Below, piece by piece: positions 3,003 to 10,135 of a DNA stretch of 33,402 bases. Both the position numbers and the translations under genes were made by a program. The stretch comes from a virus. The stretch covers positions 1 through 33,402 of the IMG/VR virus record IMGVR_UViG_3300035666_000102, one strand, 5' to 3'. The notes beneath the pieces are model-generated. The model was not told the DNA's origin and made no database searches. It saw nothing but the letters and a program-made list of their open reading frames with translations. The first letter of the stretch is position 1, and each line of letters starts with the position of its first letter.

Positions 3003-4229
3003 CTACCAGCGGCTAGTAGTAGGCAATGGCACCGCAGATACCTGCCGCGTGACCGCTGCGGCACGCCTCATGCCCTCGCAAGCGTACCTCAATGCGTCGA
3101 TGACGTGATTGTGCTTGTCCTGCAGCACCGGGAGTATCTGGCCCGTCAGTGGGTCGGTCTTGTACGAATAGTGCGTCAGCTCGTCAATCGTGTGCAGGCA
3201 GCGCGGGTGCACTACGATGTCGTAGGACTTCAGCCATTCGATGCCCTCCTCGACGCTGCGCGGGCCTTTGACGGCCGCCATGATCTTGGGGAACCCGTGC
3301 TTGCGCATGTGGCTGATGGTCTCAGGCCTCGAGCTGTCGGCCACCATGGGCCATCTCTCGGCCTCTGGCACGGTCATGAACAGGTCGGGCGTGTTCATGA
3401 TCTCGCAGCCCACCATATAGGCTTCGTGGTCAATGTAGAGCGTGCGGCCGACAACGTGGCAGCGCACCAGCACCGTCGGGTCGGTGGCGAATCCCCAGTC
3501 GGCGCCCAGGCGGTGGATCGCGTCCTTCGGTGAATCGAAGTCCTCGACCTTCCAGTTCTGGAACACGCGAGCCGTGCTGTTGCTGACGTAGCCGCCGCGC
3601 CAGACGTGCGCGTACTTGTCCGGGTCTCGGCCACGGTCGTATTCCATCTCGGCCCGCAGCACGTCAGGGAACCACGGGTTCTGGTCGAAGTTCACCTCGA
3701 CCACCACGGCGTCAGGCGGCGGCTTCGGGCCGCGCAGCAGCTGGTCTACCGGGTCGGAGTCCTGGCTCGGGTTCCAGGTGAACCACAGTTCCGAGTCCGG
3801 CTTGCGGATCGTCGGCCGCAGCAGGTCCAGGCTTCGCTGGCTCAGGCTCTGCGCTTCCTCGACCCAGGCGCGGTCGTAGCCTTCCAGGGACTTGATTGAG
3901 TCCGCTGTGTGGTTCTGCATGCCCTGGAAGATGATCAGCCCGTCGCCGCGCTTGGACTTGATCACGGCCTCCTGGACCTCGAAGTAAGCACCCGCGTTCA
4001 GCGCCTCGATCTTGAGCTCCAGCAGGCGCTTCACAGACTGGCTCAGGGACTTCTGCACCTCGCGCACGCAGACGCTACGGCTGGTCGGGTCCATGATGTG
4101 GGCTTCGATCAGCATCTCGGCGAATAGATGCGACTTGCCCGAGCCCCGGCCGCCGTGAGCGCCCTTGTACCGCGCCTGGCCCAGCAGCGGCAGCGCCCAC
4201 TCTGGGGTTTCGATGCGCAGGGTTGTCAC
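3003..4229 (-). CDS. terL: Terminase large subunit (packaging ATPase/nuclease)
   Basis: The large terminase translocates phage DNA into the procapsid using ATP and cuts the concatemer. The 408-residue protein has a Walker A at 26-33 (GGRGSGKS), a Walker B with catalytic acids at 122-127 (WVEEAQ), a coupling-type segment WFTWNPS near 149, and C-terminal RNase H-fold nuclease acids in GADWGF (D244), VADSS (D298) and a late VIDALRYA. The overall pattern is that of the PBSX/Terminase_3-type large subunit. The start codon is GTG at 4229, overlapping the TerS stop in a GTGA junction, which indicates translational coupling. Length is normal for the family. Confidence 0.95.
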   Translation of the reverse strand: MTTLRIETPEWALPLLGQARYKGAHGGRGSGKSHLFAEMLIEAHIMDPTSRSVCVREVQKSLSQSVKRLLELKIEALNAGAYFEVQEAVIKSKRGDGLIIFQGMQNHTADSIKSLEGYDRAWVEEAQSLSQRSLDLLRPTIRKPDSELWFTWNPSQDSDPVDQLLRGPKPPPDAVVVEVNFDQNPWFPDVLRAEMEYDRGRDPDKYAHVWRGGYVSNSTARVFQNWKVEDFDSPKDAIHRLGADWGFATDPTVLVRCHVVGRTLYIDHEAYMVGCEIMNTPDLFMTVPEAERWPMVADSSRPETISHMRKHGFPKIMAAVKGPRSVEEGIEWLKSYDIVVHPRCLHTIDELTHYSYKTDPLTGQILPVLQDKHNHVIDALRYACEGMRRAAAVTRQVSAVPLPTTSRW

Positions 4230-4648
4230 TTAACCACCACGCGCTCGATGCGATGCACCAGCGGAGATTCCTTGTCGCCGCTGATCTCGATTTTCTCGCC
4301 GTATTTCTTCGGCGCGAGTTTCGATAACAGCCACTTGCGAGTATCTACCTGGAGTTTGTGCTTTTGCACGGCGGCCCAATCCTTCCGGCCATCGGGAGTT
4401 TCTCCGACATCGACGTCGGATAACTCCATGACCTCTTGGGCGATGCGTTCGACGTAATTCTCCCTCGCGCGTGCGTAGCTCTCAGCCAGAGCGCTGTCCT
4501 GACTCACCCACAGCATGAAGGTGCTGTTCTTCACACCGGCCTTCTCGCAGGCCTTCCAACAGCTCATGCCGGTTTCCATGTTCGCCAGAACGGCATCGGC
4601 CAGCTTTGTCCGCTCCGGGCTTCCTTGCTTGGTCGGTTTGTTTGCCAT
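4226..4648 (-). CDS. terS: Terminase small subunit
   Basis: Small terminases recognise the packaging site and regulate TerL. I chose the ATG at 4648 (140 residues, MANKPTKQGSPER) over an upstream ATG at 4672 because AGGAG lies 5 nt before it (4654-4658 on the complement). The N-terminal half has a helix-turn-helix pattern around GMSCWKACEKAGVKNSTFML, like the DNA-binding domain of other small terminases. A helical segment follows (YARARENYVERIAQEV), then a conserved-looking KWLLSKLAPKKYGEK. It sits directly upstream of TerL with a 4-nt overlap. Expression probably comes from the promoter candidate in the repeat-rich gap just upstream. Confidence 0.88.
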   Translation of the reverse strand: MANKPTKQGSPERTKLADAVLANMETGMSCWKACEKAGVKNSTFMLWVSQDSALAESYARARENYVERIAQEVMELSDVDVGETPDGRKDWAAVQKHKLQVDTRKWLLSKLAPKKYGEKIEISGDKESPLVHRIERVVVK

Positions 4649-4711
4649 GTTTGCTCCTATGTTAGTGACCACTCATGGTCTCAGAAACGGGTCCGGCGCT
4701 TGCCGCTGGAC

Positions 4712-4741
4712 TCTACGCGTTCTACACGTCTACACGTAGAA
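4712..4741. repeat. Iteron cluster A
   Basis: TCTACGCG (4712-4719) is followed by two abutting TCTACACG units (4721-4728 and 4729-4736) and an inverted CGTAGAA (4735-4741). TTCTAC and GTAGAA at the outer edges also make the cluster partly palindromic. Confidence 0.7.
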
Positions 4742-4763
4742 CACGTGATTTTCAAAACCCCTC

Positions 4764-4796
4764 CATGTGCGTGCGCATGTGTGTGTGCATGTGTAT
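4764..4796. other. 33-bp alternating purine-pyrimidine (Z-DNA-prone) tract
   Basis: Every base from 4764 to 4796 alternates pyrimidine and purine, mostly TG/CA steps with GCGC at 4773-4776. Such tracts can adopt left-handed DNA under negative supercoiling. It lies between iteron clusters A and B, just downstream of the proposed leftward promoter. Confidence 0.75.
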
Positions 4797-4797
4797 T

Positions 4798-4825
4798 AGT
4801 ATAGACATGGTGTAGAACGTGTAGA
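4798..4825 (-). promoter_or_regulatory. Candidate leftward promoter for terS
   Basis: On the minus strand, TATACT (4798-4803) is a good -10 element. TCTACA (4820-4825) is a weak -35 at 16-bp spacing, and it is part of the tandem iterons. The 9-mer GTCTATACT recurs at the promoter candidate upstream of the replication genes (7348-7356). Repeat-bound protein would overlap the polymerase site. Confidence 0.45.
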
Positions 4826-4836
4826 ACGTGTAGAAC
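4810..4836. repeat. Iteron cluster B: three tandem 9-bp repeats
   Basis: GTGTAGAAC occurs three times head-to-tail without interruption, at 4810-4818, 4819-4827 and 4828-4836. Exact tandem identity within such a compact phage genome implies a selected protein-binding array. Confidence 0.85.
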
Positions 4837-4859
4837 TCCAATGCTGACAACAACTTAGC

Positions 4860-4880
4860 ACGTGTAGAGACTCTACACGT
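4860..4880. repeat. 21-bp perfect palindrome (iteron cluster C)
   Basis: The arms ACGTGTAGAG and CTCTACACGT flank a single A at 4870. Each arm contains one copy of the iteron heptamer. The palindrome ends two bases before the stop codon of the primase-helicase gene. On the minus strand it is not followed by a T-run, so a binding site is more likely than an intrinsic terminator. Confidence 0.75.
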
Positions 4881-4881
4881 T

Positions 4882-7065
4882 CTACTCGTCCTTGATCCAG
4901 ACCCGAACACTCCTTCCGTTGGCTGATTTCGTGACCACGGTGCGCCAGCCGAGCACACGCATCACTCGACCGACTCGTTTCTGCGCAATCTGGTCATGGC
5001 GACCGATCTCGATCTTGAGACAGTCGGACAAAATCTCAGAGGTTGTCGGCCGATTCTGATTCCACAGCCATCCACCGATGACGGCTTCCCAGGAGTCCGA
5101 ATCGCGCCTGGACTCGACTTCTTGGTTCTGCAAGTCCATCGGGACGTCCCACCATGATCCGCCATCGTTGAACAGATGGACGGCTTCAGCAAAGAGTTGG
5201 TCTCTGTTTTCTTGAAGCCAGTCGTGGTTCACGTTGCCGCAGCGAACGGGCCAGAATCGGCGGGCTCCAGTTTCATCACGCTGCCAGTCGTCGCGGTTTG
5301 TTGTGCAGGCCAAAACTGTTTGTCTCGGATGGTTTTCTGTGTTCCTGCCGTAGCTCTTTCTATATCTGTCCATCTGGCAAGAGATAATGCCTTTGATGCG
5401 CTCGACCTCTGCTCGAGTAAATGAGTGCATCTCAGCAATCTCGACCAGCATGTGGCCTTTCAGTACTTCGTAGAAGTCTTTGTGCGTCACGTTTTCGTGA
5501 CACTCCGTGAACCACTTGCCTCCGAGGATGCGCAGCGCGGTGGACTTGCCGGCGCCTTGCGTTCCTTCCAGAACAGGCACGGTGTCAACCTTGCATCCTG
5601 GCCGAAACACTCGGGCCACCATTGACATGACCCAGCAGCGCCCTACGGCATCGGTGTAGGCGTTTTCTTGGGCTCCAAGGCCTTCTGACATCAGGTAGGA
5701 CAGCCGGCGCACGCCGTCCCAGGCAAGCGACTTCAGCCAATCCTTGCACTCGTTGCGGGTGTCGTGGAAGGCGGCCACCACAGCAGCGTCGTGGCACGTT
5801 TGCAGGCCGATGCGCGTGAGTCCTACGTGGCGTTGCATGTAGAGCTGCAGCAGCACGTCGTCGGCGTCTTTCCACTGGCGTGCCTCGCCCTGCCAAGTGG
5901 TCATGATCGTGTCTAGGAACTCGTCGTACCAAATCTTGCCGCGCAGATTTGGATCAGACTCAATCGCCCTGACCACGTTGTCAAGGTTCATGATGGGCGT
6001 GCCGTTCGGCATCAGCACCAAATCAAGTTGTGGCCGAGCGTCGATCTCGCCAGTTTCTGGGTCGATTGATTGTGGGATGGCCACGGCTGCAGCAGGTTGT
6101 CTCGGCCTTGGCTTGCGGTCCATTCCAAGCTCGGCCGCAGCAGCTTTGACCGCCTTGGTCATGTCACCGCCGTGGTCGTAGTACCGATACAGATCGAACG
6201 CGCCCACCAGCTGGCCGCTCTCGTCGCTGCACAGCGGGTCTGATGCGTGGTGAATCCAGGCCTTGTCTTCGAAGATCACAACGCCTGCCAGGCCGGTGCT
6301 GGAGTGCGGTGAGAGCCACCGCTTGCCCTGCTGGCGGTAGCCGTACTGCGCAAGGGCAGCCTCGATGCTGTGCGCCTGGTCGTAGGCGTCGATCACAGAA
6401 GGCGTGGTATCGTTCCCAGACGGGATGCGAGTTTTCGCAGGCTTCGGTGTCGGCCGCTCAGGTGCCCATGGGCACAGGCCCTGCAGCTGCGGCTTGAGAG
6501 CATCCCAGTTTTTCCACAGGGACAGCAGCCAGGCGGGCGGCTCTGGAATGACACCGTTTGGTTTTGTCAGCCAGATGTAGGGCTGGCCGGTGTCGGGGTG
6601 CACGCTGGGCGGCAGGACGTCCTGGCGTTGCTGCGTGTCGGCTGCCCGAATCTCAAAGACCGTGAAGCGCTTGGCCGTGTCGTCCTGTTTGGGCCATGAC
6701 AGCGAGTGATAGGCCAGCGTCTGGCCCTCTGGCACGCGGAACAGAAGCCGCATTCCTGGCGGCTTGCCTTGGATGGTCGGAACCTGCGCGGCAAGTGCGT
6801 CGATGTCCCATCCAAATTCTGCGCAGATGATGCGCATCGCCTCGAGGTTGTCGATGTCCAGGCTGCACAGGCGCGATGGTCCCAGCGCGGCGCCCATATT
6901 TGCGTCTGGATGCTGCTGGTAATACTTGCGGGCGGCATCATGGTCGGTGATGCACTCGTTTCCCCAGTTGTCCGACAGCGGGCGCTTGCCTCGCGGCGGA
7001 AGCGGCACCAAGTGCATGCCGTACTTGCGCACATAGGTGGCGGCGTAGTCTGCGGTGGTGGCCAT
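4882..7065 (-). CDS. Bifunctional primase-helicase (PrimPol N-terminus, VirE/SF3-type ATPase C-terminus)
   Basis: This protein would prime and unwind DNA at the phage replication fork. I chose ATG 7065 (727 residues) because AGGAGG lies 9 nt upstream and the previous gene ends in a TGATG junction there; an upstream extension to 7113 is unlikely. The N-terminal PrimPol domain has the metal-binding LDIDN at 69-73 and VLPPSVHPDTG at 150-160. A linker carries PrimPol-associated sequence (GKRWLSPHSSTG). The C-terminal virulence-associated-E-like ATPase has Walker A GTQGAGKST (501-509), Walker B HMLVEIAEM (538-546) and a sensor/arginine-finger segment GARRFWPV (600-607). The iteron region starts at its 3' end. 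Confidence 0.92.
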   Translation of the reverse strand: MATTADYAATYVRKYGMHLVPLPPRGKRPLSDNWGNECITDHDAARKYYQQHPDANMGAALGPSRLCSLDIDNLEAMRIICAEFGWDIDALAAQVPTIQGKPPGMRLLFRVPEGQTLAYHSLSWPKQDDTAKRFTVFEIRAADTQQRQDVLPPSVHPDTGQPYIWLTKPNGVIPEPPAWLLSLWKNWDALKPQLQGLCPWAPERPTPKPAKTRIPSGNDTTPSVIDAYDQAHSIEAALAQYGYRQQGKRWLSPHSSTGLAGVVIFEDKAWIHHASDPLCSDESGQLVGAFDLYRYYDHGGDMTKAVKAAAAELGMDRKPRPRQPAAAVAIPQSIDPETGEIDARPQLDLVLMPNGTPIMNLDNVVRAIESDPNLRGKIWYDEFLDTIMTTWQGEARQWKDADDVLLQLYMQRHVGLTRIGLQTCHDAAVVAAFHDTRNECKDWLKSLAWDGVRRLSYLMSEGLGAQENAYTDAVGRCWVMSMVARVFRPGCKVDTVPVLEGTQGAGKSTALRILGGKWFTECHENVTHKDFYEVLKGHMLVEIAEMHSFTRAEVERIKGIISCQMDRYRKSYGRNTENHPRQTVLACTTNRDDWQRDETGARRFWPVRCGNVNHDWLQENRDQLFAEAVHLFNDGGSWWDVPMDLQNQEVESRRDSDSWEAVIGGWLWNQNRPTTSEILSDCLKIEIGRHDQIAQKRVGRVMRVLGWRTVVTKSANGRSVRVWIKDE

Positions 7066-7289
7066 CAAAACAGGCCTCCTTGCCGCGCTACCTGCGGTTG
7101 ATGCTCGATCCACTCATGGATCACGCGGCCTGGTGGAACCTCGTCAAGCCTGATCCATGGCCGCATGTTGTGTCTGGGGGATAGGACCACATCGAGGCAG
7201 TCCATGCACTGGATGCAGATGTGGACTGTGCCATTGGCGAAGACGCGCCGGGTGTAACGGCGCTCGCCGTCGTGCGAGCAGATGCTCAT
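7065..7289 (-). CDS. Small Cys-containing protein of the replication operon
   Basis: This 74-residue protein is not recognised. It begins MSICSHDGERRYTRRV and contains CIQCMDC, so Cys4 together with this cluster (and possibly His6) could bind a metal ion as a small zinc knuckle. The start ATG has AGGAG 6 nt upstream. Its TGA overlaps the ATG of the primase-helicase by one base (TGATG), so the two are probably translated together. The role is likely accessory to replication, from position only. Confidence 0.7.
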   Translation of the reverse strand: MSICSHDGERRYTRRVFANGTVHICIQCMDCLDVVLSPRHNMRPWIRLDEVPPGRVIHEWIEHQPQVARQGGLF

Positions 7290-7953: not shown

Positions 7954-8426
7954 GCCAGCAACGCCTGCGCATCCTCAACAGACCGGCAAACCCCGGCCAC
8001 GCCGCCCGCCTGGCGGATCGTGGCTAGAAATTCCTCCTGGCCTGGACGCATGCGGCCGGTGGCGGATTTGACCTCAATGGCCAGCGTGCGGCCGTCTTTC
8101 AGCACGCCCATGATGTCCGACATCCCCTTGGCGGTGTTCGCCCGTATGTACCGCACAGACCCGTCGCGGTTGCGCTCTTGGAACGTGCCCGAGTTCTGTC
8201 GCCAGCACTGGGCCACCTTCGGGTGACGTTTCAGCAGCGCAATGACGGCCTTGAGAATCTGCGCCTCTGTAGGCTGCCCTGACGCTTTCCTCGGCCCGCG
8301 CTTCACAGGCTCAGGCGGAATGTCCAGCAGCACGCGGGGCTTGCCGCTGATGGCGGCATAGCGATCCATCGCGGCTTGGTTGCGAAGCATGACTTCGCGC
8401 AGGGTTTCGCGGCCTCTTGTTTTCAC
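7950..8426 (-). CDS. VRR-NUC domain nuclease
   Basis: The C-terminal half of this 158-residue protein matches the VRR-NUC (PD-(D/E)XK superfamily) nuclease fold: GMSDIMGVL with D104, LAIEVKSATGRMRPGQ with E118, K120 and Q130, and then the VCRSVEDAQALL helix. The N-terminal 50 residues are a basic extension. Phage VRR-NUC proteins are thought to cleave branched or foreign DNA. Here it is coupled to the methyltransferase gene by a GTGA junction, with GTG as its start at 8426. Possible jobs are recombination-intermediate resolution or host DNA degradation; the sequence does not decide. Confidence 0.88.
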   Translation of the reverse strand: MKTRGRETLREVMLRNQAAMDRYAAISGKPRVLLDIPPEPVKRGPRKASGQPTEAQILKAVIALLKRHPKVAQCWRQNSGTFQERNRDGSVRYIRANTAKGMSDIMGVLKDGRTLAIEVKSATGRMRPGQEEFLATIRQAGGVAGVCRSVEDAQALLA

Positions 8427-10135
8427 TGATGCTCCAGCATTGCGTTGATTCTGCTTCCAATCCAGCGCACCACTGGAACAGCCCAGCTATTGCCGAGCGC
8501 CTTGTAGCGCGGCCCATCAGGGCACTCGCTTGCGGTCTTCTTGCGCCACGGGATGGCGGTGTAGTTGTCTGGGAAGCCTTGCAGGCGTTCGCACTCGACG
8601 GGGGTTAGGCGGCGGACTTGCATGGCGGTCTGGATGATGTCGCCACCTTGATTGCCGTGTTGCACACCGCCAGCCATCAACGGCTGCAGAACATCAACTT
8701 GACGCGCCTTGTAATCACGCCCACTGTTCTGCGGCATGATCGACCACGCCACCGCCGGCGCGTGCGCCCCCGCCGCCAGCGGATGGCATTGGTCGCCCGG
8801 CTTCGGGTTGCTGTAGTTCGCCGGGCTGGTGATCTGCGTGGTGTCAAATGGAGTTGGTTGCAGCACCGCCGTCGTGGTGCTGTTCTCAACGCCGCTTGGA
8901 ATGCGGGAACGCAAACTGCTGGATAAGTCTGTGAAACTGGCTACGCTGGCCGTGCCGTCAGTGCCGTGGAGGGTGACGCCAACAGGCACCATATATCCTG
9001 CTGCCGCATGGTCTACGCTGTTGCTCCAGCCACCGCTGTCCTTGCAGGCCTTCATCGTCCCGGCGATCTCAGGCACTGGGTGAATAACAGCAGGCACTTG
9101 ACACGCCTGTAACTGAGCCGTGGGCTTTGGATCAAGACCCCGAGAGTCTCCACCTGATTGCCAGTCAAACGCCTGGGCATCGAAGCCGCCCCCGATGGTA
9201 GGAATCAGCGTCTCCGATTCCGCATCCAGCCGCCGCTGCCCCCCCGCGTTGAGGCACATGGAAACGACGGCGTGCTGGTCTACGCAGTTCTGCGTATACG
9301 CCACATCAGCAAGCACCTCACCATGCTGCGGCCCGGCTTCGGGCTTTCTGCCGATGGCAGCGCCCTTGATGCACCATGTCTGCTGAATCACTCCTCCGTC
9401 GCAGTCAAAGTCGGTCCCGAGGCCACCGCCTGCAGTGCTGCGTGAAGGGATGGTGGGAGCGACTTTCCCCGCTTCTCTGCTCGGCGCAGTATCCCGGCGC
9501 AGGCCGTCGAACTCAAAAAGAACCTGCGCGGGATCGAACCCTGCTCGAGCACTTGCGACAACGAACACACGGCGGCGTCGTTGGGCCACTCCGAAGTATT
9601 GGGCATCCAGGACACGCCAGGCGACTGTGCGCTGGGGTCCAGCAACCACACCCGCGTTGGTCCACCCGGTCGCGGCCAACGGGTTGATGGTGGTATCGCA
9701 GCCAGCGAGCGCAGACAGGAAGCACCCAAAGGCGTTGTCTTGGGTTGAGAGAACACCTGGGACGTTTTCCCAAAGGACGATGCACTCGTCATCGCCTCGG
9801 GCTCGTCGAACATCGTCAATTGCATTTGCGATCTCGCAGAATGTGAGCGACAGGTTTCCCCGCGCATCGTCAAGGGACCGGCGCAGGCCGGCCACGGAAA
9901 AGGCTTGGCACGGAGTGCCGCCGCAAAACAGGTCTGGAGCCTCAACCTCACCCGAGCGGATGCGGGCAGGCAGTGTGGTTATGTCCCCGAGGTTGGGGAC
10001 GTTGGGGTAGTGGTGCGCAAGCACCGCAGAGGGGAATGGCTCAATCTCGGCCAGCCACGCAGCTTTCCACCCGAGCGGGTGCCACGCCACGCTTGCGGCT
10101 TCAATGCCGCTGCAGGCGCTGCCAAATGTCACCAT
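8423..10135 (-). CDS. DNA (cytosine-5) methyltransferase with large insertion
   Basis: This enzyme would transfer a methyl group from SAM to C5 of cytosine in a specific DNA site. Conserved motifs: I FGSACSGIEAAS (4-15), IV GGTPCQAFS with catalytic C76, VI ENVPGV (123-128), VIII QRRRRVF (185-191), IX RRLTPVECERLQGFPD (about 508-523) and X ALGNSWAVP (about 546-554). The protein is 570 residues, long for a phage Dcm-like enzyme. Roughly 310 residues lie between motifs VIII and IX, where the target-recognition domain belongs, with recurring APTIPSRSTAGGG/LIPTIGGGF-type motifs. The start overlaps the preceding gene by 7 bp. It probably protects phage DNA from restriction. Confidence 0.93.
   Translation of the reverse strand: MVTFGSACSGIEAASVAWHPLGWKAAWLAEIEPFPSAVLAHHYPNVPNLGDITTLPARIRSGEVEAPDLFCGGTPCQAFSVAGLRRSLDDARGNLSLTFCEIANAIDDVRRARGDDECIVLWENVPGVLSTQDNAFGCFLSALAGCDTTINPLAATGWTNAGVVAGPQRTVAWRVLDAQYFGVAQRRRRVFVVASARAGFDPAQVLFEFDGLRRDTAPSREAGKVAPTIPSRSTAGGGLGTDFDCDGGVIQQTWCIKGAAIGRKPEAGPQHGEVLADVAYTQNCVDQHAVVSMCLNAGGQRRLDAESETLIPTIGGGFDAQAFDWQSGGDSRGLDPKPTAQLQACQVPAVIHPVPEIAGTMKACKDSGGWSNSVDHAAAGYMVPVGVTLHGTDGTASVASFTDLSSSLRSRIPSGVENSTTTAVLQPTPFDTTQITSPANYSNPKPGDQCHPLAAGAHAPAVAWSIMPQNSGRDYKARQVDVLQPLMAGGVQHGNQGGDIIQTAMQVRRLTPVECERLQGFPDNYTAIPWRKKTASECPDGPRYKALGNSWAVPVVRWIGSRINAMLEHQ

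Follow-up and report, generated by a model that had tools for sequence, protein, structure and literature searches.

The DNA analysed here (the window) is a 33,402-base IMG/VR record of a P22-like tailed phage (podophage), and it carries an array of short repeats between the stop codon of a PrimPol-VapE primase-helicase gene and terS that is probably the replication origin of the phage. We place the probability at roughly 0.87 that the array serves this function and that the adjacent primase-helicase is the initiator, acting through its C-terminal winged helix. The initial annotation had raised an origin read by the primase-helicase as one possibility, and the comparisons below support it, as the repeated word goes with the helicase half of this protein.

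The phage genes of the window encode a P22-type portal, TerL, an Sf6-type TerS, major head, scaffold and head closure proteins, and a DNA ejection protein, along with RecE/RecT-like proteins and a putative SSB. PICIs, as satellites, have no complete set of virion structural genes, whereas such genes are present here; the element is a phage and not a satellite, with a module that is common to PICIs. Elsewhere in the window, positions 8423-10135 (minus strand) encode a 570-aa C5 DNA methyltransferase with family matches in two parts (about residues 1-204 and 444-570), and the gap between the matches suggests an insertion or a large target-recognition region. The features of the array and its flanking genes are as follows.

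4226-4648, minus strand: terS, the next gene after the array; its open reading frame extends from a GTG at 4672.
4710-4737, plus strand: iteron set C, with exact copies at 4721-4727 and 4729-4735 and a degenerate one at 4712; its orientation is opposite to that of set B.
4738-4807, no strand: AT-rich spacer separating sets B and C; 56% AT, compared to 42% over the final 1 kb of the primase-helicase gene.
4764-4796, no strand: alternating purine-pyrimidine tract of 33 nt, within the spacer.
4798-4825, minus strand: weak promoter-like match, TCTACA-16-TATACT, overlapping set B; one found versus 0.3 expected, of doubtful significance.
4810-4836, minus strand: iteron set B, three 9-bp units head-to-tail, TTCTACACG on the gene-sense strand.
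4845-4857, plus strand: IHF-consensus-like element, TGACAACAACTTA, degenerate in the window with 2 mismatches to WATCAANNNNTTR.
4860-4889, no strand: iteron set A, with exact copies at 4862-4868 and 4872-4878 and a degenerate copy on the stop codon.
4882-7113, minus strand: PrimPol-VapE primase-helicase, 743 aa, with Prim-Pol at residues 24-195 and the VapE helicase at 460-667.
4885-5046, minus strand: C-terminal winged-helix domain, about residues 690-743, modelled by AlphaFold2 (C-half) as helices and then a strand hairpin; the proposed iteron reader.

Seven exact copies of TCTACAC/GTGTAGA lie at 4721, 4729, 4810, 4819, 4828, 4862 and 4872 (span 4721-4878), and with the degenerate copies GAGTAGAAC, which spans the primase-helicase stop codon, and TCTACGCG at 4712, the array covers about 4710-4889. 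The initial annotation had described seven copies within about 160 bp as the densest repeat of the window, placed after the primase-helicase gene and before terS, with three head-to-tail 9-bp repeats at 4810-4836 and a 21-bp palindrome at 4860-4880 (an odd palindrome, within set A), and each of these points holds. The count of the heptamer over the whole window, proposed at the same time, gives 10, with 7 of them in the array, versus a shuffle expectation of 1.3, and none of 100 shuffles reached 10. When every heptamer was counted in 260-bp stretches, the array formed the densest cluster with its 7 copies, while the next independent word had 4. GC skew, by which the origin was to be recognised, was uninformative in the window and gave no usable signal; no Rfam families were found in the window, and DnaA boxes and Dam sites showed no enrichment in the arrays. 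On the far side of the array, the likeliest start codon of terS is the ATG at 4648, which has an AGGAG motif ahead of it and is therefore preferred to the GTG at 4672. The stretch around the terS start is conserved in loci whose arrays differ strongly.

By domain make-up, the primase-helicase is a putative self-loading helicase with a fused primase, combining Prim-Pol and VapE domains (Pfam E = 4.5e-25 and 8.7e-73, respectively) with a PriRep1 fold. AlphaFold gave a pLDDT of 34 for the whole protein without an alignment, and the C-half was modelled with 59 relatives instead (AlphaFold2, 59 sequences; mean pLDDT 92.7, pTM 0.85). The best solved match to this model in Foldseek is "PriRep1 with dsDNA" (7pds; TM 0.84, E = 1.9e-25), and the SaPI5 primase-helicase is matched more weakly. 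A sequence search of the PDB also returned 7pds as the sole convincing match (E = 5e-45), over the helicase part only. PriRep1, a staphylococcal self-loading VapE-type helicase, belongs to the same helicase family by sequence and fold, while the sequence match leaves out the C-terminal DNA-binding domain of the phage protein.

Relatives were fetched by protein similarity because the word is too variable for a DNA search; a DNA search of annotated phages with the array found no match. Five scans of viral contigs, together with genome and phage loci, yielded 158 distinct VapE-type 3′ ends, and an array was called where a 460-bp stretch around the stop codon held one heptamer four or more times (thresholds set in this analysis). 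Arrays were found at 90 of the 158 ends (57%, a minimum, from loci that are not independent of one another), compared to 10 of 155 control regions inside the gene (6%) and 13 of 152 at +500 to +960 (9%). In at least 17 of the 68 "negatives", which are of a Pseudomonas type, an array lies past one small gene, about 380 bp downstream, and 3′-end arrays were undetected in roughly a third of VapE-type relatives. Four loci with no 3′-end array (L110, L117, L124 and L186) contain 13-17 copies of one heptamer 0.4-1.6 kb past the VapE stop, which may be coding repeats or displaced arrays. The expectation in the initial annotation that the repeats would be conserved in relatives was borne out in part. 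Where the helicase half is 95-99% identical, the window's word recurs at almost the same positions, and more distant relatives retain the layout, but the word itself is replaced. Set A is retained in close relatives, and an 8-9 bp tandem triple like set B is found in most relatives with other words.

Most of the refined arrays have a common layout, in which set A (1-3 copies) sits at the stop codon and is followed by set B in inverted orientation, with about three copies spaced 8-9 bp, then a spacer, and set C (2-4 copies) in the orientation of set A. Sets B and C point in opposite directions in 72 of 87 arrays (median gap 76 bp), and the spacer is richer in AT than the gene in 85 of 87. The words are diverse, with about 35 heptamer cores among 80 arrays; oriented by layout alone, they align on the core K-G-T-N-N-C-A, the window's being TGTAGAA. 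Of 58 arrays, 16 have an IHF-consensus-like element (WATCAANNNNTTR-like, with at most 1 mismatch) no more than 41 bp ahead of set B, compared to 2.3 expected, and none has one after set C; arrays of the L011 and L023 type carry an exact element. These elements are all on one strand, the same as that of the window's (+). Alternating purine-pyrimidine runs of at least 16 nt are present in 16 of 50 arrays versus 1.25 expected from shuffles.

The inverted sets could also be read as DNA structure. The array strand folds better than shuffles (z = -4.4), and the origin of pRN1 is a stem-loop 3′ of a PrimPol-helicase gene (PMC4234260), so that sets B and C might form one large stem-loop of the pRN1 PrimPol-SF3 type instead of protein-read iterons. 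However, any inverted repeats fold, and a hairpin needs neither tandem direct repeats, unequal copy numbers, nor set A, while all copies in an array change their word together. We consider a stem-loop origin highly unlikely. Similarly, the array could be mainly an operator, through which the primase-helicase or another regulator controls transcription of the downstream (late) operon. The promoter-like match that overlaps set B points to terS, an initiator bound at the array would affect transcription, and one relative, L031, has a free-standing relative of the helicase C-terminal domain just past its array. The promoter match is non-significant, though, and the arrays hold 6-12 copies in a layout of inverted sets and AT spacer that is unchanged whatever gene comes downstream. 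A mainly regulatory array thus seems improbable, while a dual role as origin and operator is possible. The free-standing protein (L031:6519-6989, with a similar gene in L039) is related to the C-terminal domain of the D5-type helicase (31% identity, E = 2e-11) and is possibly an iteron-binding replication regulator.

Natural chimeras, which supply the strongest evidence, point to the protein that would read the word as an origin iteron. In one set of loci, the PrimPol half is 64-94% identical to that of the window, as mostly is TerS (64-96%), while the array varies in step with the second half of the gene. VapE accompanies TGTAGAA in the window, L003 and L004, and a second VapE type accompanies TGTCCCT in L017, L018, L023, L025-L028, L038, L040 and L043, as well as in L021 and L030, where the array adjoins another TerS type. 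A DUF5906-type helicase is found with TGGCACA (L020, L045), D5_N with AGGGGA (L031, L039 and L041, where the next gene is not a window-type TerS), and DUF3987 with a TGTTG-type word (L035, L036). In L005-L010, L012, L013, L015, L019, L022 and L029, the VapE half is 84-99% identical and TGTAGAA is retained. Where the gene is complete in these loci, nothing matching the PrimPol half of the window was seen, and L005 and L019 gave weak hits to DUF6371. Breakpoints lie around residues 334-374 and within the final tens of bases ahead of terS. As judged from these chimeras, the word tracks only the helicase/C-terminal half of the primase-helicase and not the PrimPol half or TerS, and related phages exchange the helicase half as one unit with the start site that matches it. 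Nothing in the comparisons points to the small early DNA-binding proteins, which the initial annotation had named as other candidate initiators.

The same loci bear on the proposal that the array is a pac/cos packaging site recognised by TerS. The array adjoins terS, and TerS proteins bind repeats near their own genes in several phages. Yet TerS proteins 72-96% identical to the window's are found beside at least four words (TGTAGAA, TGTCCCT, TGGCACA and the TGTTG type), TGTAGAA persists in L010, L019 and L022 with a ParB-domain protein in the place of TerS, and in annotated phages the array is followed by genes of other kinds (VRR-nuclease or helicase genes, for example). The occurrence of the same TerS with different words, and of the same word without TerS, argues against both TerS-linked readings put forward in the initial annotation, the pac/cos array and the terS operator; with a word that varies independently of TerS, neither withstands the test of natural variation, and a packaging site is extremely unlikely. 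By eye, the protein that follows the retained array in L010, L019, L022 and L037 has a ParB-like N-terminus.

Within the helicase half, word distance correlates modestly with winged-helix distance when helicase distance is controlled (partial r = 0.17, p = 0.001, n = 50), and the helicase domain retains a signal of its own (partial r = 0.15, p = 0.01). A residue-to-base code between winged helix and word is suggestive from these sequences, and we keep the claim at that level because the helicase holds some signal as well. From the anatomy as a whole, we infer that the primase-helicase would be a self-loading initiator whose C-terminal winged helix specifically reads 7-9 bp iterons by its own gene. 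Copies of the protein would assemble on the oppositely oriented sets B and C, assisted by set A, with possible bending of the DNA beside set B by an IHF-like host protein. Two helicase rings would form around the AT-rich, alternating purine-pyrimidine spacer, which is likely the melting region (4738-4807), melt it and move apart. The PrimPol domain would then lay primers, allowing replication to begin.

Arrays also follow the VapE gene in the named phages Acidovorax ACF1 (MZ547449), Yersinia YeP4, APSE-7, Pasteurella PMP-GADVASU-IND, Staphylococcus phiSauS-IPLA35 and phiSP15-1, Paenibacillus GIW2016, Enterococcus AE4_2 and Corynebacterium IME1320_01, and one gene further on in Pseudomonas U5. 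Arrays were sought and none seen in Rhodobacter RcWata, Bacteroides ARB25 and Lactococcus 1358. The record stretches of the named phages that were examined carry no annotated origin at the arrays. In APSE-7 (L365, LR794149.1), a GTAACAA array with an inverted triple follows the VapE gene, and the record places a putative origin upstream of the VapE gene and of a cro-like gene, a stretch in which no array was seen.

A 2018 paper described the PICI origin layout as occurring in no other known replicon (PMC6092414), and we found no description of phage origins with VapE/VirE helicases and iterons in the open-access literature. Relative to that literature, the features that seem new are the breadth among phages, the exchange of cassettes within the primase-helicase gene, and the two additional elements, IHF-like and alternating. 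A broader proposal, which we hold tentatively and at somewhat less than even odds, is that full-size tailed phages broadly use PICI-type origins; that cassettes of a helicase half and its cognate iterons are exchanged between constant PrimPol and TerS neighbours across VapE, D5 and DUF3987; that winged helices read K-G-T-N-N-C-A by a residue-to-base code; and that the origins have two further parts, an IHF-type site for bending and an alternating purine-pyrimidine tract for unwinding. The origins of most environmental tailed phages lack annotation, and searching just past the stop codon of a VapE-type primase-helicase would give a candidate origin in most such phages. The PICI-type layout would also be widened to full-size phages of Proteobacteria, Firmicutes and Actinobacteria, while the swapped helicase-origin cassettes and about 35 words make initiator-origin specificity, and its role in conflicts with origin-targeting nucleases, testable.

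Among known systems, the alpha protein of satellite P4 is set apart by description, with a TOPRIM-type primase, other repeats and a two-part origin. It shares with the phage protein a primase-helicase-DNA-binding fusion, and its winged helix binds origin repeats (ori, crr) (PMC4234260). In the PLE satellites, the origin is exchanged together with the origin-binding domain of RepA, under attack by the origin-directed nuclease Odn (PMC8263062), but the initiator is of the RepA_N type without a helicase and the iterons are about 30 bp. The pRN1 protein orf904 and phage BIP-1 have a PrimPol-SF3-winged-helix protein with the origin just downstream of the gene, while these origins are described as stem-loops without iterons (PMC4234260). 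A pRN1-type origin was considered for the window and set aside, as tandem iterons are present even though the strand can fold.

The closest likeness is to the pri-rep-ori modules of SaPIs and PICIs (SaPIbov1, SaPI1 and EcCICFT073), which, as predicted for the phage, have a self-loading helicase initiator, sometimes fused to a primase (PMC6092414, PMC7581432), and an origin directly 3′ of the initiator gene, with two iteron sets around an AT-rich region. In PICIs, these sets and the AT-rich region between them lie immediately 3′ of rep, and a plasmid can replicate from rep-ori (PMC6092414). The C-terminal domain of SaPI Rep recognises iterons directly downstream of its own gene, and the isolated C-terminal domain of Cch2 binds its putative downstream origin (PMC7581432). 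The phage differs in being a full-size P22-like podophage, complete with capsid, portal and terminase genes of its own, in its words, and in the IHF-like element and alternating purine-pyrimidine tract of the phage arrays; such arrays also occur in many other tailed phages. In the window, the array begins at the stop codon and sets B and C are inverted around a spacer of 56% AT, which is SaPI/PICI-type anatomy. Since the window matches SaPIs and PICIs in the anatomy that sequence can test, its candidate origin belongs by anatomy with this kind of origin and would work like it.
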